Of a stretch of DNA of 64,000 nucleotides, positions 23,888-47,503 are shown piece by piece (within the stretch, counting starts at the first letter, position 1; every line of letters starts with the position of its first letter). This DNA is from Candidatus Nitrospira nitrificans (GTDB lineage: Bacteria > Nitrospirota > Nitrospiria > Nitrospirales > Nitrospiraceae). The notes beneath the pieces are model-generated. The model was not told the DNA's origin, did not search any database, and was given only the letters and a program-made list of their open reading frames with translations. The stretch spans positions 1 through 64,000 of the forward strand of contig NZ_CZPZ01000006.1 of NCBI RefSeq assembly GCF_001458775.1, read 5' to 3'. Made by a program: the position numbers and the translations under genes.

Positions 23888-25864
23888 CTACATCTGAACA
23901 AACAGTTGAACAACCAGAACCAACAGGAACAGCCCCGCAACGATGATGGCAGCATAATGATGGACCATTCCGCTCTGCATCTTCCGCCCTTCGCGAGCCG
24001 CGAGATGATTGCCATAACCGATTACGTTGAGGCCGGCATAGACGATGTACTTCTCGATCCATGTGGAGCCAAAGGCACCCCAATCGGTCATCCGCCCCAC
24101 CGCTCGCACGATACCGTCTATGACCGTACGATCGAACCAGTCAAGTATCGCTCCCAGACGTTTGAGCGGCTCGACGAAAATGAGGTCGTACAGTTCATCC
24201 ACATAGTACTTGTTCAATAGGATCCGATAGGCCCCGGAAAATCTCTCAGCCCATCCTTCCGAGGTCGCCGGACTCACGGCGTACAGGAAATGCGCGAGTC
24301 CCCATCCGAGCAAGGCAATGATGATCGCAATGCTCATCAGCAGAATCATCATGCCCGCGCCGGCCTCAGGCTCAGCCCCAACCCCGACGACCGGCGCCAA
24401 AAATCCATGGAGCCAGCCATGCTCCGGTGGAAACCCCAATATCAATCCGCCCACGAGCGAGAGGAACGCGAGGACCAGCAAGGGAGCGACCATGACCATT
24501 GGAGATTCGTGCACATGCTCGGCCGTATGGGCATCCATCCGAGATGCGCCATAAAACGTCAGATAGGTCAGACGAAACATATAAAAAGACGTCATCAGGG
24601 CCCCGACGGCCGCCATGCAATACAGAAGATAATGATGATGGATGAAGGCATGGGCCATTATTTCGTCTTTGCTCCAGAATCCCGCCAAGGGAGGAAGTCC
24701 GGCGATCGCAATGGTGCCGATCAGAAACAGACGATGGGTCCATGGAATTCGGTTGCTCAATCCGCCCATCTTCCGGATATCTTGTTCCCCCGATAATGCA
24801 TGGATTACCGACCCTGCCGACAAGAACAACAACGCTTTGAAGAACGCATGGGTCATGACATGAAACACGGAAGCCGTATAGGCCCCGATCCCGCAACCCA
24901 GGAACATATATCCGAGCTGGCTCACGGTCGAATAGGCTAAGACGCGTTTGATGTCAGTCTGGACGAGTCCGATGGTCGCCGCAAACAACGCGGTCCCCCC
25001 CCCGACAAACGCGACCATCGACATCGCGAAGGGCGAAAGATCGAAGATCGCGTGATTACGGACGATCATGTAGACACCGGCCGTCACCATCGTCGCCGCA
25101 TGGATCAACGCGCTCACCGGCGTCGGGCCTTCCATTGCATCGGGCAGCCATGTGTGGAGAGGCAATTGCGCGGACTTCCCGATCGCGCCGACGAGGAGAC
25201 AGAGGGCGATAGCGGTGGCCATGTCCGGAGACAGTTGCCCGACCTGGGCAAAGACCTTTGTATAGTCGAGGGTCTTGAAGTTGATAAAGACAAGAAATAT
25301 GGCCACAAGAAATCCCGCGTCACCGATCCGGTTGACTACGAACGCCTTGGAGGCTGCTTTGGCGGCGGAAACCTTGTCGTAGTAATAACCGATCAAAAGA
25401 TAGGAACAGAGCCCGACACCCTCCCACCCGATAAAGAGCACGACATAGTTGTTCCCCATGACGAGAAGCAGCATGGAGACCATGAAAAGATTCATGTAGG
25501 TGAAGAAGCGCGTGAATCCCGCTTCTCCATGCATATAGCCGACGGAATAGACGTGGATGAGGAACCCAACGCCGGTGACAACCAGCAACCACGCACAGGT
25601 CAAGGGATCCACCAGGTAGGCTAAATTGATCGCAAGATCACCGCCGAAGATCCACTGATAGACGATGACTTCATGGGAACTCCCCGTCCGCATGATGTCG
25701 GTGAAGACGCCGACCGTACAGAGAAACGAGAGCCCGACCGATCCCCACGCCAAGCGATGGGCCAGGTCTTGAGAGTAGCGGGATCCCAGCAGCCCGTTCA
25801 CAAGAACCGCGAGCAGCGGGAACACAGGAATCAATTTAATGAGGAGATCAGTCAAGTCGGACAC
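23888..25864 (-). CDS. nuoL: NADH-quinone oxidoreductase subunit L
   Basis: 658 residues, longer than the roughly 610 of E. coli NuoL. Typical motifs are 'FIGWEGVGLCSYLLIGYYYD', 'SAQLPLHTWLPDAMEGPTPV', 'VQTDIKRVLAYSTVSQLGYM' and 'AGLPPLAGFWSKDEIMAHAF'. The C-terminal part includes the lateral-helix region and ends in a hydrophobic helix ('IIVAGLFLLVLVVQLFV'). In 2M complexes the lateral helix has to span one additional antiporter subunit, and the extra length fits this, but a structure-based alignment is needed. A 134-base gap separates it from nuoK. Confidence 0.92.
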   Translation of the reverse strand: MSDLTDLLIKLIPVFPLLAVLVNGLLGSRYSQDLAHRLAWGSVGLSFLCTVGVFTDIMRTGSSHEVIVYQWIFGGDLAINLAYLVDPLTCAWLLVVTGVGFLIHVYSVGYMHGEAGFTRFFTYMNLFMVSMLLLVMGNNYVVLFIGWEGVGLCSYLLIGYYYDKVSAAKAASKAFVVNRIGDAGFLVAIFLVFINFKTLDYTKVFAQVGQLSPDMATAIALCLLVGAIGKSAQLPLHTWLPDAMEGPTPVSALIHAATMVTAGVYMIVRNHAIFDLSPFAMSMVAFVGGGTALFAATIGLVQTDIKRVLAYSTVSQLGYMFLGCGIGAYTASVFHVMTHAFFKALLFLSAGSVIHALSGEQDIRKMGGLSNRIPWTHRLFLIGTIAIAGLPPLAGFWSKDEIMAHAFIHHHYLLYCMAAVGALMTSFYMFRLTYLTFYGASRMDAHTAEHVHESPMVMVAPLLVLAFLSLVGGLILGFPPEHGWLHGFLAPVVGVGAEPEAGAGMMILLMSIAIIIALLGWGLAHFLYAVSPATSEGWAERFSGAYRILLNKYYVDELYDLIFVEPLKRLGAILDWFDRTVIDGIVRAVGRMTDWGAFGSTWIEKYIVYAGLNVIGYGNHLAAREGRKMQSGMVHHYAAIIVAGLFLLVLVVQLFVQM

Positions 25865-25998
25865 AGTCTCGTGCCATTCCGAGGATGTTCACCTAGCCAA
25901 CCATGCTCACGGAGTCGGATCCTAAAGCGTACGCGTGGGGGTACGTTGAGGGCTACGAGCTACCGACTGCAGTGTTGGATGTGAGTATCCACATCCTG

Positions 25999-26301
25999 CT
26001 ACCACTTTAATAGGTTCATTTCATCCACATTCGTGGAAATCTTGCCTCTGAACACGACAATGATGATAGCCAAACCAACGGCCGCTTCGCCCGCCGCAAT
26101 GGCGATAATGAATAGGGCTACCAGTTGCCCCGACATCGATTCCAAATAGTGTGAAAAGGCGACCAAATTGATATTGGCCGCATTCATCATGATTTCAACC
26201 GACAGCAGCACAATGATGAAATTCCGTCTGACAAGCACCCCCATGAGCCCTATGATGAAAAGAACGGCGCTGACAGCGGTATAGGCAGACAGCGGGATCA
26301 T
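25999..26301 (-). CDS. nuoK: NADH-quinone oxidoreductase subunit K
   Basis: 100 residues, three membrane helices, with 'GVLVRRNFIIVLLSVEIMMN' and 'IIAIAAGEAAVGLAIIIVVF'. Both conserved membrane glutamates of NuoK are visible (in LSVEIMMNA and AAGEAAVGLA). It contributes to the proton path between the quinone site and the antiporter modules. The start overlaps the nuoJ stop (ATGA). Confidence 0.93.
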   Translation of the reverse strand: MIPLSAYTAVSAVLFIIGLMGVLVRRNFIIVLLSVEIMMNAANINLVAFSHYLESMSGQLVALFIIAIAAGEAAVGLAIIIVVFRGKISTNVDEMNLLKW

Positions 26302-26825
26302 GATCGCTCTCTCTCCGCCTCCAGCTGTTTCGGCGTCTTGGCCAGGACAATCGCACCGATGGCGGCGCCCAGCAGAAATATGCCGACGATCTCAAACTGC
26401 AAGAGATGGTCGCTGAACATCTTGATACCCACGGCGTAGGTGTCCCCGTCTTGCAGCACGGCAGTGGCCGACGTATCCCCCTTCGTCCCATCAAACGGCG
26501 ACCGCAGGAGGTTGTACAGAACGTAGCCGGCCCCCAAGACCGCAGGCCCCAGAACATACAACGCCGATTGATGGAAATATCGCTCATCCGTTTTGAGATT
26601 CATCAACATCAACACAAAGAGATACAGCACCAGAATCGCGCCGACGTAGACGATGACTTGCACAGCCCAAAGAAACTCCGCGTTTAGGAGGATGAACAAG
26701 CCGGAAACGTGCATCAGCAACACGAGCAAGGAGAGCGCACAGTGAACCGGGTGCCGTAAGGTCACCGTCAAAACACCGGCGGCAATACTGACCAATGCGA
26801 AATAGGTGAAAAACACTCCGACCAT
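26298..26825 (-). CDS. nuoJ: NADH-quinone oxidoreductase subunit J
   Basis: 175 residues with five predicted helices: 'VGVFFTYFALVSIAAGVLTV', 'HPVHCALSLLVLLMHVSGLF', 'AVQVIVYVGAILVLYLFVLM' and a final 'FEIVGIFLLGAAIGAIVLAK'. The Tyr/Gly-rich helix 3 ('VIVYVGAILVLY') is the family hallmark. It is encoded 10 bases after nuoI and overlaps nuoK. Confidence 0.93.
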   Translation of the reverse strand: MVGVFFTYFALVSIAAGVLTVTLRHPVHCALSLLVLLMHVSGLFILLNAEFLWAVQVIVYVGAILVLYLFVLMLMNLKTDERYFHQSALYVLGPAVLGAGYVLYNLLRSPFDGTKGDTSATAVLQDGDTYAVGIKMFSDHLLQFEIVGIFLLGAAIGAIVLAKTPKQLEAERERS

Positions 26826-26834
26826 GGGTTCAGC

Positions 26835-27422
26835 TCAATTCAGATGTTTGGGAGGCGGTTGGGTCGACTTCTGTACCGACTGCGGGAAATAGTAGCGGTA
26901 CTCGCGACTCTGCTCGACATTTTTCTCTTGGTTGTGCGCATACAAATACTTCTTCCCATCATCGAGGTGGCGTTCGCCGATGTCGTACAACCGCTTTTTG
27001 TCGAACAGCAGACTGCGTTTGTCGTGGGTCGAATATTCGTACATCTTGGTCATCGCCAGCGCGTTGACCGGACAGGCCTCGACACAATAGCCGCAGAACA
27101 CGCATTTTGTGATATCGATATAGAACTCACTGGCATAGCGCTGGAGCGGACGGGTCGTATCCTCCGCGCTGATCACCTTGATGCAATGCGATGGACAGGC
27201 GACCTCGCACAGATCGCAGCCGACGCACCGCTCCTGGCCATCGTCGTACCGAAGCAAGCCTAGCGCGCCGCGATGCGCATCCGGAATCGTTCGTTGTTCC
27301 CGCGGATACTGAAACGTCATCGGTCGATGAAGCATGTGCCGAAACGTGACCTTCATGGCGTCCCAAATCTCATAGAAGAGCGCGGCATGGAGAATTTTTT
27401 TGGTCAGGGCGGCAACACTCAT
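26835..27422 (-). CDS. nuoI: NADH-quinone oxidoreductase subunit I (2 x 4Fe-4S)
   Basis: 195 residues. Two complete ferredoxin motifs, 'CVGCDLCEVACPSHC' and 'CVFCGYCVEACPVNA', bind the N6a and N6b clusters that relay electrons towards NuoB. The N-terminal amphipathic region ('ILHAALFYEIWDAMKVTFRH') anchors it at the membrane. The C-terminus is extended by a polar, Gln- and Tyr-rich tail. It follows nuoG after only 41 bases, so no nuoH lies in its usual place between nuoG and nuoI. Confidence 0.93.
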   Translation of the reverse strand: MSVAALTKKILHAALFYEIWDAMKVTFRHMLHRPMTFQYPREQRTIPDAHRGALGLLRYDDGQERCVGCDLCEVACPSHCIKVISAEDTTRPLQRYASEFYIDITKCVFCGYCVEACPVNALAMTKMYEYSTHDKRSLLFDKKRLYDIGERHLDDGKKYLYAHNQEKNVEQSREYRYYFPQSVQKSTQPPPKHLN

Positions 27423-27463
27423 CGTAGACTCCTCGTCACGAACGGTCGACCGTACACATCCGC

Positions 27464-30157
27464 TTATGCCTGCTCAACACTCACCCAGATCTGCTTGAAC
27501 GACGGGACGCCGGTGGTGGCATCAACCGACACCGTCATCAAATCCTTGACCGGCGGTTCGTTAAAATGCTCCGGGAAAAAGCACGTGCCGGGCGCGACGG
27601 ACTGGTCTGGCTGGACACCCAGCTGAAGAGAGCCCCGATCGGAGGTCAGTCGCACCTTCGTGCCGTCTTGCAATCCAAGACGCTCCATATCTTGTATGTT
27701 CATCCGAAGCTTCCCGGTGTTCGGGGCAATGTTGATCAACCCTGATGCGTGCGTCGATAATTTTCCCGAATGCATGAGCACTTGTCCCATCAACAACGCG
27801 AAGGGACGCGCGTGTTCTTCTGACGGCGGGGTCGGTCGATACCGAACCGCGACCTCCGCCGCATAGCCGGCAGACAAATATTGGTCAGGAACAGGCGTGA
27901 CTTTCCGCGGTTGACCGAGATTATAGTATCCGGGCAGCAGCTTCATAATCTCGGCTTGAATATCGTTGGGCGATTGGTATTCCCATCGACACCCCATGGC
28001 GTTCGCGAGGGCGGTCATGATGTGCCAGTCCGGCAGGCTCTCTCCAAGCGGATCCATCGCCTGACGAACGCGAAGCACCCGACCTTCAAGGTTCGTAAAG
28101 GTGCCGTCCTTTTCTGCGTAGGTACAGGCGGGGAGCACGAAATGAGCCATCTTCGCCGTATCGGTCAAGAAAGGATCTTGCACCACCAGCAGTTCGAGCC
28201 GATCGAGAGCAGGTCGCACTTCCATTGAAGCCGGCAAGGTCGCGAGCGGATTTTCCCCTAGCACGTACAAAGCTTTGATCTGGCCACTCTTACACCGCTT
28301 CAGTATTTCAATAAGATGGGCACTCGATTCGGTCGAAGGAAGCGGCGCCTCCCACGCGCCGGCGAACCGGTCCCGCGCCGTGGGATCGTCAAACCGAGCT
28401 TGCCCGGGCAAAAACTCGGGCGCCACGCCCATATCAACGGCGCCTTGTTCGTTCGGCTCCTCTGTCACCGTGTTCACACCGCAACCTGGTCGACCAAGCT
28501 TGCCGGTGATCCAGGCGAGATCCATCAGTTTTAAGACGTTCTGATAGCCGTTCGCCCGCCTGACGATCCCTTCCGCGCACAGGATGATCGACCTCGGTGA
28601 TTCGGCAAAAATAGCTGCAATTTCGCGGAAGGCTTCTATGGGAACGCCGGTCTGAGCTGCGAGCCGCTCTACCGAAACGTGTGCGACCGCGCTCTTGAGC
28701 GCTTCAAACGCCTGGGGATGTTTTTCGACCGTCTCTTCATCAACCAAATCCTGATCGATCGTCGCCCTGACCAACCCATCGATCACGGCTCCTTCCGTCC
28801 CAGGCTTGATCAAAAATGGATGCGATGCCAACTTCGCCATATTCGTGATGGCGCTGTCGAGCGTCACAACTTGAGCCCTGTAGACCCGCATGGCTTCTTT
28901 GATTCGCACAGCGGTCAACGGGTTTGTCTCGGTAATATTGGAACCGATCAAAATGATGGCTTTCGCTTTCGTCAGATCTTCCCAATCATTCGGCGTTCGC
29001 CCAAGTCCGACCGCATGTTTGGACGCGAGCACAAAGTTCATATGGCCATAGCGGGCGCTGCTGTCGAGCTGATTGGTGCCAAAAGCAGTACGCATGAGCT
29101 TCTGAAATAAATACAGCTCTTCGTTCGTGCAGCGCGCCGTCACGAGGCCGGCAACGGCATCGGCGCCGTATTGACGTTTGATTTCGGCAAACCGGTCTAC
29201 GAGCTGGTGCATCGTTTCCAGCCAAGGTTTCTGCACCAACTGACTGCCTTCACGGACCAGGGGCTGTGTCAGCCGGCTCTTACTGTCCAGATATTCGAAC
29301 CCAAAACGTCCGCGTACGCAGAGCCCACCGTGTCCCTTGGCGGTTTCCGATCGGTCGCCCCACTTGTTCTTCCACGATAACGAGGAGGTGACGCGGACCA
29401 CCTCTTCATCTTTCGTCTCCAGGTAGAGCTGGCAACCGTCTCCGCAATAGTTGCAGGTCGTCGTCGTCTTCTTCATCTGCCACGGCTTATACAGATACTT
29501 GGAAAACTTATTCGTGATGGCGCCGACCGGGCAGACCGCCAAACAATCTCCGCAGAATTCGCAATTGAGGGCGAGGTCGCCCTTGGCCACGACCTGGTTG
29601 AATCCACCCTTCTTCATGAACTGCAAGGCATCGATCATCAACACGTCCTTGCACACATTGATGCATTCCGCACAGGCAATGCAGCGATTCATGTTGAAGT
29701 CGAGCACGGGACTGCGCGTATCTTCCGGAATGAATTTCTGCTTGGCACTGGCCAGATTTGTCACGCCGTGCTGGAAGGCCATATCTTGAAGTTCACAATG
29801 GCCGTCCGCGTCGCACACCGGGCAGTCGAGAGGATGGACCGACAGATGTTTCTCGACGGCTTTCTTCCGGGCAAGAAAGAGATCCTCGCCTTCCGTACGG
29901 ATGACCATTCCCGCCGCCGCCTTGGCGGTACAGGACCGAACGGGAGCTTTCTTCCCCTCTTGCATCACCAAACACATGCCGCAAGAGCCGAACGGGTCAA
30001 ATGTGTAGTGATAACACATCGCCGGGATGATCTTGCCCGTCATGGCAATGACGTCGTACAACGACACCCCGTCCTTTGCCGTGACGGACTTTCCGTCGAT
30101 GCTCAACTCGATCTTTGCCGCTTCGACGTCTGGATTAGTAGCCGGCCTCAGGCCCAT
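27464..30157 (-). CDS. nuoG: NADH-quinone oxidoreductase subunit G (molybdopterin-oxidoreductase fold)
   Basis: 897 residues. N-terminal [2Fe-2S] region ('FGSCGMCLVMQEG', 'VRSC'), a His/Cys-ligated cluster region ('HPLDCPVCDADGHCELQD'), two ferredoxin-type motifs ('CIACAECINVCKD', 'CEFCGDCLAVCPVGA'), then a 4Fe-4S motif ('CNYCGDGCQL') opening the long molybdopterin-oxidoreductase-like domain. In E. coli NuoG takes electrons from NuoF. Here neither nuoE nor nuoF is adjacent, so the electron partner may be ferredoxin or separately encoded NuoEF. It lies between nuoD and nuoI, with an 85-base repeat-bearing gap before it. Confidence 0.9.
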   Translation of the reverse strand: MGLRPATNPDVEAAKIELSIDGKSVTAKDGVSLYDVIAMTGKIIPAMCYHYTFDPFGSCGMCLVMQEGKKAPVRSCTAKAAAGMVIRTEGEDLFLARKKAVEKHLSVHPLDCPVCDADGHCELQDMAFQHGVTNLASAKQKFIPEDTRSPVLDFNMNRCIACAECINVCKDVLMIDALQFMKKGGFNQVVAKGDLALNCEFCGDCLAVCPVGAITNKFSKYLYKPWQMKKTTTTCNYCGDGCQLYLETKDEEVVRVTSSLSWKNKWGDRSETAKGHGGLCVRGRFGFEYLDSKSRLTQPLVREGSQLVQKPWLETMHQLVDRFAEIKRQYGADAVAGLVTARCTNEELYLFQKLMRTAFGTNQLDSSARYGHMNFVLASKHAVGLGRTPNDWEDLTKAKAIILIGSNITETNPLTAVRIKEAMRVYRAQVVTLDSAITNMAKLASHPFLIKPGTEGAVIDGLVRATIDQDLVDEETVEKHPQAFEALKSAVAHVSVERLAAQTGVPIEAFREIAAIFAESPRSIILCAEGIVRRANGYQNVLKLMDLAWITGKLGRPGCGVNTVTEEPNEQGAVDMGVAPEFLPGQARFDDPTARDRFAGAWEAPLPSTESSAHLIEILKRCKSGQIKALYVLGENPLATLPASMEVRPALDRLELLVVQDPFLTDTAKMAHFVLPACTYAEKDGTFTNLEGRVLRVRQAMDPLGESLPDWHIMTALANAMGCRWEYQSPNDIQAEIMKLLPGYYNLGQPRKVTPVPDQYLSAGYAAEVAVRYRPTPPSEEHARPFALLMGQVLMHSGKLSTHASGLINIAPNTGKLRMNIQDMERLGLQDGTKVRLTSDRGSLQLGVQPDQSVAPGTCFFPEHFNEPPVKDLMTVSVDATTGVPSFKQIWVSVEQA

Positions 30158-30210
30158 TGTCGCCTCGTTGCTCGCTCAACGTTATTCGTTGTTGTTGAGG
30201 TTCTGCTTCG

Positions 30211-30238
30211 TGTAACGATTAACGTCTTACGTTTAACG
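30211..30238. repeat. Heptamer repeat (NNTWACG)x4 in the nuoG-nuoD gap
   Basis: TGTAACG, ATTAACG, TCTTACG and TTTAACG follow one another between nuoD and nuoG. The units resemble the TTTMACG array in the second nuoM. It occupies part of an 85-base intergenic gap in an otherwise tight operon. Confidence 0.55.
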
Positions 30239-30242
30239 TCTC

Positions 30243-31487
30243 TCATCTGTCACACTCGCCCATCACGACATCGTAGGTGCCGAATATGGTACAGGCATCC
30301 GAGATCATATACCCTCGGGCCATGTGATCGAAGGCGCCCATGTGAATGAACGAAGGGGCACGAATCTTCAGTCGATAGGGCTTTCCTCCCCCCGTACTGA
30401 CGATGTAAAAGCCCAGTTCCCCTTTGTGCGCTTCCGTACCGCAGTAGACCTCTCCCGGTGGAGCATCGAACCCCTGCGAGAAGAGTTTGAACTGTTGGAT
30501 CATTGCCTCTAGGTTTGTAAAGACCCGCTCTTTCGGCGGCAGCGTCACGCTGGGAACATCGGCCATGATGGGCCCTTCCTGCATCTGCTCCAAACATTGC
30601 CGAATGATCTTGACGCTCTCATGGAGCTCCATCACCCGAATCCAATAACGATCGTACGTATCCCCGTTTTTTCCGACCGGCACGCTGAACTCACACTTCG
30701 GATAGGCGCTATACGGCTCATACTTGCGAAGGTCATAGTCCACGCCGGATCCGCGGAGAACCGGCCCACTCAACCCAAAATTGACCGCATCTTCGGCGGA
30801 AATCACGGCGACTCCCTTGGTGCGCCCAAGCCAAATGCGGTTTCTCTCGAGAAACACCTGATATTCATCGATCTTCGGCGGGAAATAGTCGAGAAACTGT
30901 TTGAGCTTGTCGATCAACGAAGGCGTCAAGTCTCGTTCAATTCCTCCGATTCGGTACCAGCTCGTTGTGAGGCGAGCCCCGCACAGCTCGTCGAACCAAT
31001 CAAGCAGGATTTCGCGATCTCGAAAACAGTAAAAAAATACGGTCATGGCTCCAATATCAAGCGCCTGGGCGCTCAGCCAAAATTGGTGCCCAATGATGCG
31101 CTGAACTTCCGCAACGATCGTCCGTAAATATTCAGCTCGTTCCGGAACCTGTAAATTTAAAAGTTTCTCAACGGCTCGGCAGTAGGCAAAGTTGTTGTAC
31201 ATCGCGCAGACATAGTCAAGTCGATCCGTATGAGGAATGAACTGATGATACGTGCCATCTTCCGCCAGCTTTTCGACTCCCCGGTGGAGATACCCCATCA
31301 CCGGAGTAGATTTCACCAACCGTTCCCCTTCCAGCTCTAGAATGACCTTAAGCACCCCATGGGTACTGGGATGTTGCGGCCCCATATTGAGCAGAAGCTC
31401 CTCGGTTCGCAAGGTCGGGAGCGTCTCGCTCTCCGGGTGTTCCGGATTGACCTTGTAAACAGTGGTTCTTTGATCTTCGAATGCCAT
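30243..31487 (-). CDS. nuoD: NADH-quinone oxidoreductase subunit D
   Basis: The start is set at ATG 31487 (13 bases after nuoC), because the protein then begins 'MAFEDQRTTVYKV' and reaches the conserved 'LLLNMGPQHPSTHGVLKVIL' within 40 residues; 414 residues. It has the quinone-site signatures 'MGYLHRGVEKLAE', 'YVCAMYNNFAYC', 'RIIGHQFWLSAQALDIGAMT', 'GPVLRGSGVDYDLRK' and the C-terminal 'GTYDVVMGECDR'. It forms the quinone-binding cavity with NuoB. NuoC and NuoD are separate here, not fused. Confidence 0.94.
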   Translation of the reverse strand: MAFEDQRTTVYKVNPEHPESETLPTLRTEELLLNMGPQHPSTHGVLKVILELEGERLVKSTPVMGYLHRGVEKLAEDGTYHQFIPHTDRLDYVCAMYNNFAYCRAVEKLLNLQVPERAEYLRTIVAEVQRIIGHQFWLSAQALDIGAMTVFFYCFRDREILLDWFDELCGARLTTSWYRIGGIERDLTPSLIDKLKQFLDYFPPKIDEYQVFLERNRIWLGRTKGVAVISAEDAVNFGLSGPVLRGSGVDYDLRKYEPYSAYPKCEFSVPVGKNGDTYDRYWIRVMELHESVKIIRQCLEQMQEGPIMADVPSVTLPPKERVFTNLEAMIQQFKLFSQGFDAPPGEVYCGTEAHKGELGFYIVSTGGGKPYRLKIRAPSFIHMGAFDHMARGYMISDACTIFGTYDVVMGECDR

Positions 31488-31500
31488 ACTAGGGATCGTC

Positions 31501-31998
31501 CTATCGTGGAATCTCATCCAAGAAATCAAACGTGTCTCGCCAGCCTTTGCCGCGAAGCGGAAAATCCTTACGCAACGGATAGCCCTCGGTATAGTCATCC
31601 GGCATGAGAATCCGTCGAAGATCCGGATGATTTCGAAACCGAATACCCATCATGTCGAAGACTTCACGTTCCATGAAATCGGCACCTTTCCAAAGATCCG
31701 TTAAGGAATCAACGACACAATCCGTTTCAGGCACCCGCGTCTTCAGTCGGATGCGATGCCGCTTCCGAATCGAGTAGAACTCCCACACCACTTCGAATCG
31801 CTCTTCCTCGTCGGGCCAATCCACGGAACTCACATGGACGATATAATCGAAATCCATCCCGGGATCGTTGTGCAGAAACTGGGCCACTTCATGAAGTTTG
31901 TCCCGCGTAACAGTCACCGCCGCATCGCCTCGCCACTCAGCCAAGCCGGTGACTCCAACCGAAAACGCCTGCTGAATTCGTTGCAGCAATGGATGCAT
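31501..31998 (-). CDS. nuoC: NADH-quinone oxidoreductase subunit C
   Basis: 165 residues. The family signature 'ERFEVVWEFYSIRKRHRIRL', 'WKGADFMEREVFDMMGIRFR' and 'HPDLRRILMPDDYTEGYPLRKDF' (read across a few extra residues) is intact. This is the 30-kDa peripheral-arm subunit that packs against NuoD. It lies nine bases after nuoB and 13 before nuoD. Confidence 0.94.
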   Translation of the reverse strand: MHPLLQRIQQAFSVGVTGLAEWRGDAAVTVTRDKLHEVAQFLHNDPGMDFDYIVHVSSVDWPDEEERFEVVWEFYSIRKRHRIRLKTRVPETDCVVDSLTDLWKGADFMEREVFDMMGIRFRNHPDLRRILMPDDYTEGYPLRKDFPLRGKGWRDTFDFLDEIPR

Positions 31999-32007
31999 AG
32001 CGACGCG

Positions 32008-32535
32008 TCAGGCCTTCAGACCGGCCTGGACCTGCTCTGGTTGAGTCACGAACACACGTTTTTGCATAATGCGCTCTTGAAGCTTCAGGATGCCGTCCAA
32101 GAGCGCCTCCGGCGTCGGAGGACAGCCGGGCACATAAATGTCAACGGGGATAAATCGATCGACTCCCTGGACGACGCTATAACTGTCATAGATATTCCCT
32201 GATGTGGCACAGGAGCCCATCGCAATGACATACTTAGGTTCCGGCATTTGGTCGTAAATCTTTCGAATCACCGGCGCCATACGTCGACATACGGTTCCGG
32301 CGACGATCATCAAATCCGACTGCCGCGGCGAGCCGCGAAACACGCCTGCCCCGAACCGATCCATGTCGTACCGCGAAGAAACAGCAGCCATCATCTCGAT
32401 GGCGCAGCACGCAAGTCCGAAGGTCATTGGCCAGAGGGAACCCTTCCTTGCCCAATTCACAGCTTTTTCAAGAGACCCCGTGATGACGTCCGGAGCCGCG
32501 TCTTTCTCATGCCGTCCCAGTTGAATCAGTCCCAT
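32008..32535 (-). CDS. nuoB: NADH-quinone oxidoreductase subunit B
   Basis: The start is set at ATG 32535 ('[13 protein letters not shown]'), seven bases after the nuoA stop; 175 residues. All ligands of the terminal N2 cluster are visible: the CC pair in '[12 protein letters not shown]', the Cys in '[11 protein letters not shown]' and the Cys of '[14 protein letters not shown]', with '[10 protein letters not shown]' between. It passes electrons from N2 to quinone in the NuoD cavity. Confidence 0.95.
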
Positions 32536-32542
32536 ACAAGCC

Positions 32543-32926
32543 TCAGTCCCACTCCAGTGCGCCCTTTCGCCAGGCATACGCGTAAGCCACGATGAACAAT
32601 CCTATAAAAATCAGCATTTCAATCAACCCAATCACCCCGATCTTGGTAAAGACGACCGCCCATGGATAGAGGAAGATCACTTCAATGTCGAAGATGACGA
32701 ACAACATGGCAAAAATGTAATACCGAACAGGAAATGGCATACGGGCATCGGAAAATGGTTCGGCTCCACATTCATAGGTCGATAACTTTTCTGGCTCCGG
32801 ATACCGGGGTTGCACAAAATAACTGATGAGCAAGGTCATCACTCCGAAGGCCAAGGCGACCAAGATAAAGAGAAAGACCGGGAAAAACTTAGTCAGGTAA
32901 TCAAGAAGAGCTTCAGTCCCGGTCAT
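32543..32926 (-). CDS. nuoA: NADH-quinone oxidoreductase subunit A
   Basis: 127 residues, three helices, with the conserved loop '[20 protein letters not shown]' and '[20 protein letters not shown]'. It is the first gene of the operon, so the operon promoter should lie in 32927-33000. The loop Cys/Glu region contacts NuoD near the quinone site. Confidence 0.94.
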
Positions 32927-35160: not shown

Positions 35161-37431
35161 ATGGCTTCCGATGGGCTCTCAACCCTTCCGCATCAAATGC
35201 AGACGCTCTATGCAGACGTTATTGTACCCCGCCATATTGCGAAGGCCTTCACCTATCTCATCCCTCCCGCCTTAGCTGAGACCCTAACAATAGGGCACCG
35301 CGTCCTCGTCCCGTTTGGACGCATGGTGCTGGAAGGGGTTGTCATCTCACTGAGCAACCGCCTCGCGACCGAGATTCAGTCCGCTTCCCTTAGAGAGATC
35401 CGCTCTCTAGCCCACGATGGGGAAGCTTCTACATTGCCTCCGGCGTTGTTCGAACTCTCGCGCGCGATCGCGGAATATTATGTTGCACCCTGGGGCCAGT
35501 GTCTTCGCCTCATAGTGCCCTCGATCGCGACGCGGAAAACCTCGCCCGCACGATACATGGCTACTCCGCAGGGTCGCGCAGCCCTAGAAACCGACCTTTG
35601 TCCAGACTCTCTGAAGCCGACTCTGGACCGAATTGCCCGACGAACTGCAGGAATCCTGGCCTCGACATTTCAACCACCTCGACAGGCAAAGGCTGTGCAG
35701 GGGATCGCCGCCCTCATCAACAAGTCGTGGATAACACTCGTACCCTCGACTAACGCCCACGTCGGGTCTCAAGAGCCGCGCAGGAAACTCACCATGGACG
35801 AGCCTGATCGTCGAACACTATGGGATGGCATTCTGCCCACTGACACGCTTCCGAAGATCAGCTCCTCTTGGAAAACGCATATCGCTCACTGTCTTCACAG
35901 TAATCACACGAGGACGCTCGTGCTCCACGCCCCATGGGAGCACCGGCTCAGCCGGCTTGCCGACGCTATTCACCAAGCCCACGCAATGAAGCGATCCACT
36001 CTAGTTCTGACCGGCGAGATTGCGAGAGCGTCCTGGTTGAAACAACAACTCTCAAAGCTCACGGGCATCCAGATTACCCTCGCGCACCCATCTTCACAAT
36101 CCGATCGATGGCCACAGGGCCAGGGACTGACTCCCTTGGTAGTCGTAGGAACCCGTTCGGCCATATTTTCGCCTCTTCAATCGATGGGGCTCATCTGGGT
36201 GGAGGGAGAAGAGGACCCTGCTCTGAAAGAGCCCCAGGAGCCTCGCTATCATGCCAGAGAGGTGGCTGGTTTGAGGGCGAAGAGCGAGCGAGCGCTCGTT
36301 GTGCTGGCATCGGCTCATCCATCTCTTGAATCGAGGTTCAATACCGAAGCCGAGCTCCATCATGTGCCACAAGAAGTGGCCCTTCAACCAACGATTGAGC
36401 TCGTTGACCTCCGCAACGAGTCAGCAAGAACCCTCCTTAGCCACACTCTTATTCGGGCAATGCACGACGCCCTACAGGGTCACGTCAAGATTCTGCTCTT
36501 TCTCAATAGGAAAGGGTACGCTGGGACCTTGGCCTGTCGAGACTGTGGCTGGGTCCCTCGTTGCGATTCCTGTATCGTGCCGCTGACCTATTATCGTGAA
36601 GCCGGCAGGCTGACTTGCCGCTACTGTGGGAAGGCGGATCGGCTGCCGGATCTCTGTCCTTCATGCCGCACTCCTCGTATGAGTCCTGTCGGTGGTGGAA
36701 CCGAGCGTGTTGAAGCCGAAGTCCGTCGTGTATTCCCGCAGGCCAACGTTGCTCGGCTCGATGGCGACACGCTCCGGCGCTCGGCATCTGCTCACGCTCT
36801 GTGGGAAGGCGTCAAGTCGGGCGCGTGGGATATTCTCATCGGGACCCAAGCGTTGTTTGGCGGGGAGCCACTGCCCCGCTACGGCTTGGTGGGAATCCTC
36901 CAGGCAGATTCCGGGTTGCACGTCTCGGACTTTCGCGCAGCCGAGCGCACCTATCATCTCCTGGTTGATGCCGCCGACCTGGCCTCTCCGGCGTCCACCG
37001 GAGGCCGAGTCATCATCCAGACACGTCTCCCGACGCATTACACCGTGCAGGCCCTGCTATCAGGCCATCCCCATCAATTCTACGATGAAGAATTCGCCGC
37101 GCGGCGGCTTCTTCATTATCCGCCCGTCTGCCGCTTGGCTGATCTCTCGGTAACCGGAAAAGACTCTAGAATTGTCGAGGAGGCCGCCAAACGATGGGGT
37201 GCGGAGCTTGAACAAAACGCCGATGGCCAGGAGCCTCTGATGGTGTTAGGACCAGTGCCGGCGATACGCAGGCTTCCCAAAGGCCGTCAGCAGTATCGCC
37301 TCTTGGTAAAAGGAACGGATCGCACCACTCTCAGCCGACGGATCCATGATTCCGTCCAGAACATGGAGCGAAAGTATCGCAAAGGACAGATCAAATTTCT
37401 GATCGACATCGACCCGGTCGAGAATGGATAA
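35161..37431 (+). CDS. priA: PriA-like primosomal protein lacking ATPase motifs
   Basis: 756 residues with the PriA order: 3'-DNA-binding domain (residues about 15-110, 'VIVPRHIAKAFTYLIP'), helicase-like core, an eight-cysteine zinc region (C459, C462, C468, C471, C486, C489, C499, C502) and the C-terminal domain. However, the P-loop position (255-262) reads LHAPWEHR instead of GxTGSGKT, the DEEH box (about 347-351) reads VEGEED, and the motif-VI GRAGR is replaced by 'AADLASPASTGG'. Neighbouring conserved blocks such as 'VVVGTRSAIFSPL' and 'ADSGLHVSDFRAAERTYHLL' remain. It is full length and in frame, so it is likely a DNA-binding restart factor without helicase activity, as reported for actinobacterial PriA. 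Confidence 0.85.
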   Translation: MASDGLSTLPHQMQTLYADVIVPRHIAKAFTYLIPPALAETLTIGHRVLVPFGRMVLEGVVISLSNRLATEIQSASLREIRSLAHDGEASTLPPALFELSRAIAEYYVAPWGQCLRLIVPSIATRKTSPARYMATPQGRAALETDLCPDSLKPTLDRIARRTAGILASTFQPPRQAKAVQGIAALINKSWITLVPSTNAHVGSQEPRRKLTMDEPDRRTLWDGILPTDTLPKISSSWKTHIAHCLHSNHTRTLVLHAPWEHRLSRLADAIHQAHAMKRSTLVLTGEIARASWLKQQLSKLTGIQITLAHPSSQSDRWPQGQGLTPLVVVGTRSAIFSPLQSMGLIWVEGEEDPALKEPQEPRYHAREVAGLRAKSERALVVLASAHPSLESRFNTEAELHHVPQEVALQPTIELVDLRNESARTLLSHTLIRAMHDALQGHVKILLFLNRKGYAGTLACRDCGWVPRCDSCIVPLTYYREAGRLTCRYCGKADRLPDLCPSCRTPRMSPVGGGTERVEAEVRRVFPQANVARLDGDTLRRSASAHALWEGVKSGAWDILIGTQALFGGEPLPRYGLVGILQADSGLHVSDFRAAERTYHLLVDAADLASPASTGGRVIIQTRLPTHYTVQALLSGHPHQFYDEEFAARRLLHYPPVCRLADLSVTGKDSRIVEEAAKRWGAELEQNADGQEPLMVLGPVPAIRRLPKGRQQYRLLVKGTDRTTLSRRIHDSVQNMERKYRKGQIKFLIDIDPVENG

Positions 37432-40590: not shown

Positions 40591-41247
40591 TCATCCTTGC
40601 CGTTTCACAAAAAAGGCGGCCGCCTGTGCGCGCCGCGTGATGCGAAGTTTTTGAAACACGTTGGCCAAGTAGTTCTTGACGGTCTTGTCGCTGAGCCCGA
40701 GTGCGACGGCGATTTCCTTGTTGGTCTTTCCCTCGGCAACCAGCGCGACGACTCGCTCCTCCTGAGAAGACAGCTGGTCCGTACCAGAGGTCGCCGGCAG
40801 ATCGTGAAGCCCTCTCAACCAACGCAGAGCCCTTTCGGTCACAGTAGAGTCGAGGATCGATTGGCCTTTCGCCACCGAGCGGATGGCTTCGAGCAAGGCG
40901 GGTGAATCGATTTCTTTGAGGACATAGCCATGAGCGCCGGCGAGCACGGCGGCGATCACGGAGTCGTCGTCGGCGTAGGACGTCAGGAAAATGACCCGTG
41001 TCCGCGGCAGCGCCCCGAGAATCTCTCGACAGGCATCGATCCCGGACCCGTCCGGCAGTCGGACATCCATCAGAATCACGTCGGGCTTCAATCTCTGCGC
41101 TTGCTGGACAGCCTCCGCCATGGCACCCGCCTCCCCGACGACTATGACATCCTGGGTTTGGCCGAACACCGTCCGCAGTCCCACGCGAATGACCTCATGA
41201 TCATCGACCAACAGGACTCGAATAACGTGAGTTTTAGGTGTGAGCAT
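40591..41247 (-). CDS. NarL/FixJ-type response regulator (REC-LuxR)
   Basis: Start at ATG 41247 ('MLTPKTHVIRVLLVDDHEVI'); 218 residues. The receiver has its phospho-acceptor in 'DVILMDVRLPDGSG', and the C-terminal LuxR helix-turn-helix is 'EERVVALVAEGKTNKEIAVA', 'SDKTVKNYLANVFQKLRI'. It begins 14 bases before the end of the giant kinase gene, which carries a NarX-type HisKA_3 domain, the classical partner of this regulator class. It should act as the DNA-binding output of that kinase. Confidence 0.9.
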   Translation of the reverse strand: MLTPKTHVIRVLLVDDHEVIRVGLRTVFGQTQDVIVVGEAGAMAEAVQQAQRLKPDVILMDVRLPDGSGIDACREILGALPRTRVIFLTSYADDDSVIAAVLAGAHGYVLKEIDSPALLEAIRSVAKGQSILDSTVTERALRWLRGLHDLPATSGTDQLSSQEERVVALVAEGKTNKEIAVALGLSDKTVKNYLANVFQKLRITRRAQAAAFFVKRQG

Positions 41248-44200
41248 AGGGCGTATCCTTTGGAAGATCGAGCGAGACCCTCGTCCCCTTGTCAGGTTTC
41301 GACTGGATGGCGAACAGGCCGCGGACTTTTTGAGCCCGTGCCGCCATGTTGGCGAGCCCATGACCAATCCCCTGAACCGAGCGTGTATTAAATCCGATGC
41401 CGTCATCCGTCACGGCGAGACGATCGGAGCGGATGAGATCCCGAAGCGATACCGTGATGTGTTTGGCGCGGCTGTGGCGCAACGCATTACTCACCCCTTC
41501 CCGTACGATGTTGATGATATGGAGCGCCTGTTCGGTGGAAAGCCGCCGCGCAGCTGCCTCGTCGATTCTGACCCGACATTTGGTGAAAGAGGCGATGGAC
41601 ATCGTTTCGACCATAGTTCGCAAGGCGGTCGAAAAGTCTCCACCCTGCAGCACTTGAGATTCGAGACCGGCAATGAAATTCCGGACTTCCGTCATGACCT
41701 GGTTGAGCTGCCCAATGGCTTGATCCAGTGTCGCCCTGAACTTCTCCGCCATAGGATCGCGCTGTTTTTTGATCAGGGGCTTACACGCTTCCAGTCCAAG
41801 CCCCACTGCATACAATGCCTGGAGGATTCCGTCGTGGAGGTCCTGGCTGATCCGCTCTCGTTCCTGGAGCGCGGCGCTCAAATCTCGCTCGCGCTGCAGG
41901 AGTATCTCCTCCATCCGCTTACGCTCGGTGATATCCGTCGCGGCGCCCAGGACCATGTGAACCTGCCCATGATCGTCAAAAATGGGCCTCTTGACCGTTT
42001 GTAACCAGCGCGTCCTTCCCCCGGCATCGGTGATCCTTTCCTCCAAGATGAACCGATCCATCCCGGAACTGAACACCTCAAGATCGCTCCTCCGAAAGAA
42101 CTCTACCTCTTCCGCATTGACATTGAAGTCAGAATCCGATTTCCCGATCAACGCTTCCACCGTCGTGCCATACCAATCGGCCAGGGCTTTGTTCGCCAAT
42201 GCAAACCGTCCGTCCCGATCCCTGGCAAAGATGAGGTCTGGGTCGGTGTCGATGACTTGTCGCAAGAACCTGTGGGAGCGATGAAGCTCGGCTTCCGCCT
42301 GCTTGCGTTCTGCAACGTCCCGTAAGATCATACAACCATATTCTTGCCCGTCATACTGCAGGTAATTAACGGTCACGTCCGTCTCCAGGACGTTTCCGGT
42401 TCGTGACCAAAACTTCGCGTCGAACGTCAACGCTCCCTGCTGTTTCAAGAAATGCCAATGCTCTGCCCACCGTTCCACGGGGAAATTCGGGTCAATGTCA
42501 TGCACCGTCATGGCCAGGAGTTGCTCGCGTGAGTACTCCAACATGTCGCATGCGGCGTCATTGACGTTGAAAATTCGAGCGTGCGGGTCCAACCACACAA
42601 TCGCCTCCACGGCCTGATCCACGGAGAACTGGGTTAACCGCAGCGCCTTTTCCAATCGCTTGCTCTCGGTGATATCGTCGCCGACCGTCACACTGCATTG
42701 CTTGCCGTTCAACTCAATCAATTCCGCCGACAAGAGACACTGGCGAACTTCGCCGCTCTTGCTTCGGAGCGCCACTTCCACGTTGCGGACGGATCCCTGG
42801 CTCAGCAACAGTTCGAGATAACGGTCCCGCGCCTCCGTCGAGGGCCAGAGTCCTATTTGTTGCGTCGTGCGTCCTACGACTTCTTCTTTGCTATAGGCGA
42901 ACAGCTGACACGCGGCATCATTCGCGTCCACCACGAGACCGGAGTCCAGCTCGCTTATGACGACCGGATTGGGACTGGCTTGGAACGCCTTCGCAAAACG
43001 CTCTTCGCTCCTGCGAAGCGCTTCCTCGGCCTGCTTGCGGTCCGTGATGTCGTTGGCGATGGTCACCACACAGAGCGTTCCGTTGAGCTCCGCGAGATCA
43101 GCGGAGGCCAGAAGGTAGCGCAACGCGCCCGATTTGATCTTTAAAGCAAACTCCATGTTGCGCACCGGCTGCCCGGCTTTCAAACGCTCGATGACCCGTA
43201 CTCTGTCCTCGAGATTCGGCCAGATCCCCAGCATCAACGTGGTGCTTCCGATCACTTCTTCGCGACGAAAACCGAACAGTTCCAGACAGGCATCGTTCAC
43301 CTCGATACAACGGCCCGTTGCGACCTCCGTGATCCCGATCGGATGAGGACTCGTTCGAAAGGCTTTGGAGAATCGTTCCTCGCTTTCCCGCAGAGCTTGC
43401 TCAGCCTGCTTCCGCTCGGTGACATCGACTGTCGCGCCGATCAGGTGCGTCAACCGCCCGTCCTGATCACGAACGCTGTGGCAGCGAACGTCAGTCCACA
43501 CCATCGAGCCGTCTTTCTTGACCATCCTCAGCTCATAGTGACAGGCATCGGCTGCTCCGCTTTGGACCAATTCCCAGTTCTTCATGGCGATCGGCTGGTC
43601 CTCCCGACAGACCAGGTCCAGCCAAACAAACGGATCGGTGGAGAGTTCTTCAGGCGCATAGCCAAAGAGGGCTTTGAGATTGGCATCCGCGTGGTATTCA
43701 CCTCTGATGACATCCAATTCCCAGACGCCGACCTTGCCGATGGCCGTGGCGCGTGCGTAGCGTTCTTGGCTGGCCTGAAGTTCGGCCGTACGTTCCATCA
43801 CTTTTCGTTCTAATTCTCCATGTGCGCGCTGAAGCGCTTCCTCCGACCGTTTGCGATCCGTGATGTCCTGGAACGTTCCGTACGCTCGCACGGCTCGCTC
43901 TTTCACCACGTCGACCTTGCCGACGACCCGTACGGTAACCCGCCGCCCCTTCGCCGTGAGAAGCTCCAACTCGAGATCCCACGGTGTCCCCTGCTCCGCC
44001 CCTTTTCTGAGCGCTTCGGCAATAAGGGAGCGGCTGTCGGACATGCAAAAATTCACCGCCGTCTCCACCGTCGGGCTATACAGCTCCGGTGTCGTGTCGT
44101 ACAGCCGGTAGGTTTCGTCGCTCCACCACAGACGGTTCGTCAGGAAATCCAACTCCCATCCCCCGATGTTCCCGATCGCTTCGGTTTGGGCCATCAGCGC

Positions 44201-47200
44201 CAATTGTTGCTTGTGGTGCGTGATGTCCTCCGCAATGCCCGCAATGCGATGTTCCCGCCCCGCCATTCTGACTCGGCGATCGGAGATCCAGCGGACATGA
44301 CCATCTCGTCCCACGATCCGATACTCGCAATGGAACACCGCCGCCGCTCCTCCGCCGACAAACCCCTCATGGTGCGCCTTCACCCGAGTACGGTCATCCG
44401 GATGGATCGAGTCGAGCCAAAGGGACCAATTACGATATATTTCTTCCCGCTCGATGCCCCAGATACAGGTGAATGCGGAATTGACATACAAGACCTTTCT
44501 TTCGTCCGGTGTCACATCCGCGATCCAGAAGGCTGAACCGACCGACTCGGCGAACTGCTGCCACCGGGCCTCGCTCTCCCTCAACGCCTCTTGTGTACGA
44601 TTGCGCTCGGTGACATCGGTGGCAATGACGCCGATGGCCGAGAGACGACCAGCCGCATCGCTCACCGGGAACTTGACGACAATGCTGGTATGAGGCCCGT
44701 CTTCCTGCTCCGCGACTTCCTCAAACTCCTGTCCTCGTCCGCCGGCCAACACCTGTCGATCATGCGATTCAAACTGTTCGGCCTGCTGTGGTGAAAACAG
44801 TTCTCGATCCGTCTTCCCCAAGGCCGTGCCAGGATCCAGCCGGAAGACTTCGTCGAACCGCCGATTGGTATACACATACTGCCCATGGTGGTCTTTCAGA
44901 GCGGTCAAATTCGGCGCGTTGTCGAAGAATTGTCGAAAGCGCTCTTCGCTCTGACGCAGGGCTTGCGTCCGGTCGCCCACCTGCTGTTCCAATGTGGCGT
45001 TAAGATCGGCCAACGCTTTCTCCGCCTGCTTGCGCTCGGTGATGTCCTCGCACACGATGAGCGCCAAGGATTCTTCAACCCGATTTTGGAGCACGCGCGC
45101 GAGCTCGCGTACCCACAAGACCGAGCCGTCGCTTCGCACCTTGCGGAATTCCCATTGCGCGACTCCTTCCGGCCGACGAAAGAACGCCTCCATCTCGGCA
45201 CAGACGCGCGCGCGGTCTTCCTCGAAGAAAATCGACGCCACCGACTTCTCGACCAGATCCTCGACGCGATAACCCAAGTACTGCGCGCCGTACTGATTGA
45301 CGGATCGAAGGATACCTGTTCCATCCACGGTAAAATACATGGAGGGAGTTTCATCATAGAGAGTCCGGTATCGCTCCTCGCTCTGACGCAGAGCGTCCAG
45401 GGTCGATTGGCGGTCCAGCTCACCGCCGAGCCACCGGGCCATGAGTTGAATGAAATCCCTTTCGGCCTCGGTAAAACGTTTTGCGCGAGGTTCGGTATTC
45501 GCAAAACACAGGGTCCCGTAGGTGCGCTCCCGTCCGTTGATCACGGTCCCGATGTACGATTCCAACTTCAGCGCGGCATACGCCGGGTGCCGCCGCCACT
45601 CCGGAGAAGCACCGGCATGTTCGAAACTCAATGTCCCGCTCTGGCGAAGGGTCTCGCTGCAGTACGTCTTGCCCAGCGGCACACTCATACCAGGGTGGAA
45701 AGCCGTACCAGGCGCGTTCACCTGCCCCACCTCCAACGCTTCGCCCCGGATAAAGGTCTCCATTCCGATCGGTGTGTCGAAGAATCGGCACCCGAGGTGA
45801 AGCAGCGCTTCGACCCGCTCCTTGAGCGACTGGCCCTGCGCCGATGCAATATCGTGGAGCGCGCGGATCGCCTGTCGGCTCCTCCACAGGACCTGTTCCG
45901 CTTGTTTTCGCTCGGTGATATCGGAGAACAGGCCGAGGATCGCCGGCTTGCCGTTCCAGTGGATCCGCGCTGCCTCGACCTGAACCGGGATCGATGTTCC
46001 ATCCATCTTCAGATAGATGCGTTCCGCGCTATGGACGGAGACCCCGCCGTTCAGCAGGCGTTTCACATTCTCGCGGACTTCCGGATGATAGTCCGGATGG
46101 ATGAATTCAAACGTCGGCCGGTCCAGAATTTCCCGAACGGCGCTCGCTCCCAGGAGGACGGCACCCGTGGGGTTGATGTAAACCGTTCGTCCTTCACTGA
46201 AGACGACGACACCAGACGGTGAAAGCTCGACCAACGTCCTGTACCGTTCTTCACTCTCCCGTACCGACTCTTCCATCAGTCTGCGATCGGTAATATCGAC
46301 ATGCGAGCCGAGCACGCGAATCTGTCGACCATCCGCCTCCGCGACAAACGAGGCCCGCGCCTCGATCCAGCGATACTGCCCATCCTTGTGCCGCAGCCGA
46401 AATTCCTGTCGATAGTCTCCCTCGCGGCGGGACACGTAATCTCGCACATACGCCATCACCGCATCCCGATCCTCCGGGTGTAGACGCGCCGTCCATGCTT
46501 CAAAAGAATCCGCGATCTCCTCCGGCTCGTATCCCAGCTGACGCTTCCATTCGTCGGAAAAGACCACGTCGTTCGTTTCGGTGTTCCAATCCCAGAGTCC
46601 GATACCTGACGCACGGAGGGCCTGTCGGAGTTTTTCTTGCGAAGCCCGGAGCATCGCCTCCACGCGCTTCCGCTCGGAAATGTCGTGAGCATTCACGATC
46701 ACGCCGCATCGGCCATCTGAATCGCGGATGATCCGACCGATTCCTTCGAAATTTCTCCACACGCCGCTCTTGTGGTGAAAACGAAACTCGGCGAACTGAG
46801 GCGTTCCAGGCTGCTGAACGAGCAGATGAAATTTTTCGGTGACGGCGGGAAGGTCCTCGTGATGAACAAATTCGACCGCGCTACGCCCATTGAGCTCGTG
46901 CTGGGCATAACCGAGCCATCGTTCGACCGACGGACTTTCATACCGGATCGTGCCGTCCAGATTGAAAACGATGATGACGTCCGAGGAGTGCTCGATAAGC
47001 GCGCGAAAATGCGCTTCGCGTTGTTGCAGAACCAGCTCCGCCCGCTTGCGATCAGTAATGTCCAAGGCCGTTCCGGACATACGGCGGGGTTGCCCGCCGC
47101 TATCACGCCCGACCTCGCCGCAGCAATGAATCGTCCGTACCTCGCCATCGGGGCGGACGACTCGGCATTCCAGGTCGTATGCTGCGACTCCTGCTAACGC

Positions 47201-47503
47201 GTCATCGATCGACGCCAGCACCCGATCATGATCGTCCGGCAGGATCGCCGACACAAAGCTGTCGAAGGTGACCGCCCGTGATCGAGGTTCATAGCCGAAG
47301 ATCCGGTAGAGTTCATCCGACCATTCCACCTCGCCGCTTGCGATGTCCCAACTCCAACTCCCCAGATGAGCAAGGGCTTGTGCGACCTCGAGGTGACGAG
47401 TCTGTTCGTGCAGGACTCGGTCACGTTCGGCCAATTCACGGGCGAGATCGGCAACTTGCCTGCGCAGCAGATCCAATTCAGGACGGTGACTCGTGGGATT
47501 CAT
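41234..47503 (-). CDS. Giant soluble multi-PAS/GAF histidine kinase (HisKA_3 type)
   Basis: 2089 residues with no membrane helix. By eye I count 13 PAS domains, most closed by a PAC signature of the 'DITDRKRAE' type, at roughly 45-155, 165-285, 290-415, 418-535, 715-835, 865-985, 990-1115, 1120-1235, 1265-1385, 1390-1505, 1510-1630, 1635-1750 and 1755-1875. One GAF domain lies at about 545-700 ('LGCRFFDTPIGMETF', 'GKTYCSETLRQSG'). Two short coiled linkers occur ('ALADLNATLEQQVGDRT', 'HGELERKVMERTAELQ'). The output is HisKA_3 ('ERERISQDLHDGILQALYAV') and HATPase ('GIGHGLANMAARAQ'). PAS 10 and 11 are close to each other, which suggests internal duplication. It is coupled to the NarL-type regulator. 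Confidence 0.9.
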   Translation of the reverse strand: MNPTSHRPELDLLRRQVADLARELAERDRVLHEQTRHLEVAQALAHLGSWSWDIASGEVEWSDELYRIFGYEPRSRAVTFDSFVSAILPDDHDRVLASIDDALAGVAAYDLECRVVRPDGEVRTIHCCGEVGRDSGGQPRRMSGTALDITDRKRAELVLQQREAHFRALIEHSSDVIIVFNLDGTIRYESPSVERWLGYAQHELNGRSAVEFVHHEDLPAVTEKFHLLVQQPGTPQFAEFRFHHKSGVWRNFEGIGRIIRDSDGRCGVIVNAHDISERKRVEAMLRASQEKLRQALRASGIGLWDWNTETNDVVFSDEWKRQLGYEPEEIADSFEAWTARLHPEDRDAVMAYVRDYVSRREGDYRQEFRLRHKDGQYRWIEARASFVAEADGRQIRVLGSHVDITDRRLMEESVRESEERYRTLVELSPSGVVVFSEGRTVYINPTGAVLLGASAVREILDRPTFEFIHPDYHPEVRENVKRLLNGGVSVHSAERIYLKMDGTSIPVQVEAARIHWNGKPAILGLFSDITERKQAEQVLWRSRQAIRALHDIASAQGQSLKERVEALLHLGCRFFDTPIGMETFIRGEALEVGQVNAPGTAFHPGMSVPLGKTYCSETLRQSGTLSFEHAGASPEWRRHPAYAALKLESYIGTVINGRERTYGTLCFANTEPRAKRFTEAERDFIQLMARWLGGELDRQSTLDALRQSEERYRTLYDETPSMYFTVDGTGILRSVNQYGAQYLGYRVEDLVEKSVASIFFEEDRARVCAEMEAFFRRPEGVAQWEFRKVRSDGSVLWVRELARVLQNRVEESLALIVCEDITERKQAEKALADLNATLEQQVGDRTQALRQSEERFRQFFDNAPNLTALKDHHGQYVYTNRRFDEVFRLDPGTALGKTDRELFSPQQAEQFESHDRQVLAGGRGQEFEEVAEQEDGPHTSIVVKFPVSDAAGRLSAIGVIATDVTERNRTQEALRESEARWQQFAESVGSAFWIADVTPDERKVLYVNSAFTCIWGIEREEIYRNWSLWLDSIHPDDRTRVKAHHEGFVGGGAAAVFHCEYRIVGRDGHVRWISDRRVRMAGREHRIAGIAEDITHHKQQLALMAQTEAIGNIGGWELDFLTNRLWWSDETYRLYDTTPELYSPTVETAVNFCMSDSRSLIAEALRKGAEQGTPWDLELELLTAKGRRVTVRVVGKVDVVKERAVRAYGTFQDITDRKRSEEALQRAHGELERKVMERTAELQASQERYARATAIGKVGVWELDVIRGEYHADANLKALFGYAPEELSTDPFVWLDLVCREDQPIAMKNWELVQSGAADACHYELRMVKKDGSMVWTDVRCHSVRDQDGRLTHLIGATVDVTERKQAEQALRESEERFSKAFRTSPHPIGITEVATGRCIEVNDACLELFGFRREEVIGSTTLMLGIWPNLEDRVRVIERLKAGQPVRNMEFALKIKSGALRYLLASADLAELNGTLCVVTIANDITDRKQAEEALRRSEERFAKAFQASPNPVVISELDSGLVVDANDAACQLFAYSKEEVVGRTTQQIGLWPSTEARDRYLELLLSQGSVRNVEVALRSKSGEVRQCLLSAELIELNGKQCSVTVGDDITESKRLEKALRLTQFSVDQAVEAIVWLDPHARIFNVNDAACDMLEYSREQLLAMTVHDIDPNFPVERWAEHWHFLKQQGALTFDAKFWSRTGNVLETDVTVNYLQYDGQEYGCMILRDVAERKQAEAELHRSHRFLRQVIDTDPDLIFARDRDGRFALANKALADWYGTTVEALIGKSDSDFNVNAEEVEFFRRSDLEVFSSGMDRFILEERITDAGGRTRWLQTVKRPIFDDHGQVHMVLGAATDITERKRMEEILLQRERDLSAALQERERISQDLHDGILQALYAVGLGLEACKPLIKKQRDPMAEKFRATLDQAIGQLNQVMTEVRNFIAGLESQVLQGGDFSTALRTMVETMSIASFTKCRVRIDEAAARRLSTEQALHIINIVREGVSNALRHSRAKHITVSLRDLIRSDRLAVTDDGIGFNTRSVQGIGHGLANMAARAQKVRGLFAIQSKPDKGTRVSLDLPKDTPYAHT

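Follow-up and report, generated by a model that had tools for sequence, protein, structure and literature searches.

PriA, the restart protein found most widely among bacteria, is commonly presented as a helicase. It is normally a DNA-unwinding motor that aids the restart of stalled chromosome copying. Actinobacterial PriA is believed to lack the helicase motifs, and the initial annotation of the locus described here took the actinobacteria as the precedent for a helicase-dead PriA. That precedent had to be replaced. Nothing on an actinobacterial PriA pseudohelicase was found in open-access papers, and as far as found the only experimental precedent is Deinococcus (Deinococcus-Thermus), where the PriA of D. 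radiodurans was described as a pseudohelicase (Lopper et al., 2015; PMC4504706). This protein is without ATPase or helicase activity, and it binds ssDNA, fork DNA and DnaB (PMC4504706). It has the full PriA architecture with helicase motifs I and II ruined, a state that is clade-wide in its phylum, and clear priB or dnaT homologs have not been reported in Deinococcus (PMC4504706). In E. coli, PriA with a dead ATPase can still build primosomes and restart forks (PMC4504706; PMC10175261), and the K230R mutant marks the motor as unnecessary for primosome assembly. The literature yielded nothing specific on Nitrospira PriA, and no earlier report of a motor-dead PriA in its phylum was found.

The window (the whole 64,000-nucleotide stretch of Candidatus Nitrospira nitrificans DNA that was analysed) contains an ORF that matches PriA over its full length, as initially annotated. 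It scores 374.6 bits against TIGR00595 (cut-off 230.35), and solved PriA structures align with it at E 1e-74. Pfam identifies the 3'-DNA-binding domain (3'BD), the PriA zinc ribbon and the PriA_C domain, with PF17764 and PF18074 both above their gathering cut-offs. General PriA models reach 453 bits, whereas the actinobacterial models of NCBIfam PRK14873 fit the protein far worse, at up to 215 bits. Its two named close relatives, at 83% protein identity, come from Nitrospira MAGs. Domain order, DNA-binding domains and the eight zinc cysteines are as in E. coli PriA. The features are collected in Table 1.

Table 1. Features of the priA locus and of other parts of the window.
Feature	Position	Strand	Basis
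priA, full-length, single-copy, motor-dead by alignment, 756 aa, ATG start	35161..37431	+	ORF, profile and structure matches
3'BD, kept	35215..35520	+	PF17764, aa 19-120, 75.7 bits
Former motif I (Walker A), reading APWEHRLSRLA	35929..35961	+	88-PriA alignment
Former motif II, reading WVEGEEDPALKE against VIDEEHDSSYKQ in E. coli; second Glu retained	36196..36231	+	88-PriA alignment
Former motif III, LASAHPSLES	36304..36333	+	Alignment; T358 to H in 26/29 Nitrospirales
Cysteine-rich zinc region, eight Cys (C459, 462, 468, 471, 486, 489, 499, 502)	36535..36666	+	Alignment; PF18319 zinc ribbon match
Former motif V, DILIGTQALFGGEPLP; GTQ kept, AKGHxFP lost	36829..36876	+	88-PriA alignment
Former motif VI, DFRAAER kept, QVAGRAGR to VDAADLAS	36928..36996	+	88-PriA alignment
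PriA C-terminal domain, kept	37123..37416	+	PF18074, aa 655-752, 50.9 bits
Respiratory complex I (nuo) genes, incl. 49-kDa, 20-kDa, NuoG-like and chain-5 antiporter subunits	23888..32577	-	
Sensor histidine kinase, 2089 aa, about nine PAS domains and a GAF domain	41234..47503	-	

The motor was analysed in an alignment of 88 PriA sequences, consisting of 87 from the phylum (the window PriA included) and that of E. coli K-12. In the window PriA, motif I has changed from GVTGSGKTEVYL to APWEHRLSRLA (GVTGSGKT to APWEHRLS), motif II from VIDEEHD to WVEGEED (DEEHD to EGEED), motif III from GSATP to ASAHP, and motif V from GTQMLAKGHHFP to GTQALFGGEPLP, the beginning of motif V being retained. The initial description of motifs I, II and VI as erased thus fits I and VI exactly and II almost, since the second Glu of II (E. 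coli E322) survives. The loss is shared by all aligned PriAs of the order, and no lysine is present at the K230 position in any of the 29 Nitrospirales PriAs. By comparison, the key change in motif I of Deinococcus-Thermus is a Lys to Arg substitution within GKT, while in Nitrospira the P-loop has been replaced in its entirety by a shorter sequence, and motif VI is lost as well. The retention of the DNA-binding part and of the zinc cysteines, also noted initially, is borne out by the Pfam domains and by the cysteines, which lie in the helicase insertion and are invariant in all 88 sequences.

The loss is concentrated in the motifs. Among 104 positions that are invariant in 25 motor-intact PriAs, Nitrospirales keep 8 of the 36 inside motifs and 50 of the 68 outside them (Fisher p = 9e-7). 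The signatures GxxxxGK[TS], DEEH/Q and GRxGR are present in 25/25 motor-intact PriAs and stand at their proper place in 0/62 motor-dead ones. When profiles were compared domain by domain, both lobes, the 3'BD and the C-terminal domain matched motor-intact PriA at 99.7-100% probability. This match of the former motor lobes makes it probable that the PriA fold survives, even though the ATP site has been lost. A structure prediction of the window PriA from three sequences gave a model too poor to use, with a pLDDT of 33.8 and a pTM of 0.24.

On the alignment, therefore, the window protein is a member of the PriA family yet not a PriA helicase, motifs I, II and VI being non-functional as judged by comparison with E. 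coli PriA. The helicase-dead state first proposed for it is well supported at this level, and the protein would be expected to have no ATPase activity. A cryptic ATPase, using a non-standard nucleotide site, could draw on the retained motif II Glu and the GTQ of motif V, but it is very improbable: in Nitrospirales the Lys, Thr and glycines of motif I have gone, as have the conserved Gln upstream of this motif (Q203) and the two arginines of motif VI, and the ATPase of E. coli PriA is abolished by K230R alone (PMC4504706).

The initial annotation allowed that a canonical priA elsewhere would overturn its reading. A search of the genome, which is 99.8% complete and in 36 contigs, found no second canonical priA, and the reading survives. 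The three other weak priA matches in this genome fall in ORFs of the sizes of Mfd, UvrB and RecG. Like that of Deinococcus, the window PriA has Walker A and B destroyed, is the sole priA and is conserved across its clade. Of 49 good genomes in the genus, 46 have PriA. Gene-wide dN/dS is 0.19-0.33 among close relatives (13 measurable pairs), and across the segments of the former motifs II and V/VI it falls to about 0.1-0.2 for most pairs; the former motif I segment is short and its values are too noisy to judge. Purifying selection acts on this gene, and at least some of the former motor surfaces remain constrained. Since dN/dS is low across close relatives, priA is a maintained gene and not a relic.

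In a few genomes of the genus priA could not be detected, which is what decay toward loss would produce. Decay is nevertheless hardly credible against a dN/dS of 0.2-0.3, an open frame, and conservation over the whole order and a second clade; for the genus, the selection and distribution data largely refute it. One Nitrospira genome (G029, 2.0 Mb, 99% complete) is without priA by tblastn and two HMMs, and the gene was likewise undetected in G005, G040, G037 and G071 of the genus and in G235 and G289 of the class. Such cases reflect either assembly gaps or true loss, gaps being the likely explanation in the less complete genomes of the genus. These few genomes suggest that priA may not be essential in every member.

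PriA family model scores range widely over 295 genomes of the phylum. Representatives were taken from most of its families, which are designated by number. Every sampled PriA of the order Nitrospirales (f1-f3) is motor-dead by its motifs. In the same class f8, a sister family of the order, is motor-dead too, with six other families motor-intact; the other classes hold 13 motor-dead families (f15, f21, f23, f25-f31, f33, f35, f38) and 14 intact ones. In family f37 the P-loop is present and GRAGR is lost, so that its PriA looks like an intermediate in sequence. The example from f37 (genome G261, locus L114) retains the P-loop GIAGSGKT and has LAEKVGTG in place of VAGRAGR in motif VI.

Nitrospirales and f8 are monophyletic, with support of 0.88 in an rpoB tree (FastTree; the mistranslated sequence G207 left out) and 0.94 in the PriA tree, and the second motor-dead group of 13 families is monophyletic with support of 1.0 in both. 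Parsimony gives two motor-loss changes on either tree. Because each dead clade is nested among motor-intact lineages in both trees, the motor was lost at least twice in one phylum, a further difference from Deinococcus. The two clades also carry different conserved substitutes: K230 is replaced by E in 27 of 31 members of one, and the motif III Thr by His in 26 of 29 of the other. The best reading is therefore of two loss events, each with its own later re-fixation of residues.

Such clade-specific residues at the former ATP site suggest a new constraint, as would be expected if PriA had been repurposed and no longer restarted forks, for example as a passive, SSB-associated protein protecting forks or D-loops. 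We consider this improbable, given that the best-kept parts of the protein are the DNA-binding and zinc parts, which are those used in primosome assembly, and that no alternative restart initiator was seen (PriC was outside the search).

DciA and the RecQ and UvrD helicase families were surveyed in 60 genomes (37 motor-dead, 23 motor-intact). The loader DciA is present in all 60, this genome included; it is equally common in motor-intact genomes, and hence is uninformative on the motor-dead state. Wild-type E. coli PriA, with its motifs intact, has PriB, DnaT and DnaC as partners. The E. coli-type DnaT/DnaC set was not encountered in the Nitrospira genome: DnaT was searched for and not found, and the DnaC/DnaI family (PF01695) gave only weak matches in longer ORFs, with a best score of 33 bits in a 452-aa ORF.

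The initial annotation had also argued that loss of the motor implies restart through another helicase. On this reading RecG, a UvrD/Rep-type helicase or RecQ took over unwinding of the lagging arm, and motor-dead PriA depends on it. Candidates exist, in that the genome encodes a RecG-sized relative (901 aa) and RecQ, and UvrD-type helicases are found in 60/60 genomes; moreover, a fork with a duplex lagging arm would require some unwinding (PMC4504706). Against this, none of the tested helicases tracks the loss. Of the 37 motor-dead genomes 16 have RecQ, as do 11 of the 23 motor-intact ones, and neither the RecQ nor the UvrD family shows a phylum-wide association with motor loss in the 60 genomes. 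Nitrospirales and f8 lack the best-scoring UvrD/PcrA type, which the class's intact families have; this is the opposite of compensation. The type occurs also in most of the second motor-dead clade. This distribution speaks against a common replacement helicase. As ATPase-dead E. coli PriA restarts forks, and so dispenses with unwinding by PriA (PMC10175261), and RecQ does not track the loss, another helicase is not required. Dependence on one is possible but not implied, and we regard a takeover as rather unlikely.

At the level of individual genomes, a PcrA/UvrD scoring >300 bits to PF00580 was found in 8 of 8 motor-intact genomes sampled from the class and in none of Nitrospirales and f8, where the remaining UvrD is a lower-scoring type of ~690 aa. 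In G000 this type was missing as well, probably owing to a contig end near rpoB.

On the basis of the PriA precedents, the kept DNA-binding parts, and the presence of DciA without DnaT, we think it likely that the window PriA is an ATP-independent pseudohelicase, serving as a fork-binding platform for the reloading of DnaB, with DciA as the probable loader. PriA would recognise abandoned replication forks and D-loops by their shape. The 3'BD would hold the leading-strand 3' end, and the zinc-rich domain, lobe 2 and the C-terminal domain would grip lagging-strand ssDNA. Bound there, the protein would act as a platform for putting DnaB back with the aid of its loader DciA. Its substrates would be forks whose lagging arm is already single-stranded, PriA-driven unwinding being outside its job. 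Homology suggests that it binds fork DNA and DnaB, and the hand-off to DnaB and DciA would follow. For Deinococcus PriA there is biochemistry, while the Nitrospira protein is known from its sequence.

A bolder version is that, after each of the two losses in Nitrospirota, the dead ATP site was rebuilt, clade by clade, into a different conserved structural element, leaving PriA as a static clamp on forks, loading DnaB directly together with DciA. We put this forward tentatively, as doubtful. If true, it would be an ATP-free restart route unlike the E. coli and B. subtilis primosomes.

A PriA pseudohelicase as such was already known; the present case extends the kind to a new phylum, in which the motor was lost independently at least twice. 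Repeated and stable loss of the motor within one phylum, with every zinc residue and the DNA-binding domains kept, is natural evidence that what is conserved in PriA is fork recognition and loading, not unwinding. Because motor-intact and motor-dead lineages share one class, the phylum offers a ready comparison for the purpose of the PriA motor.
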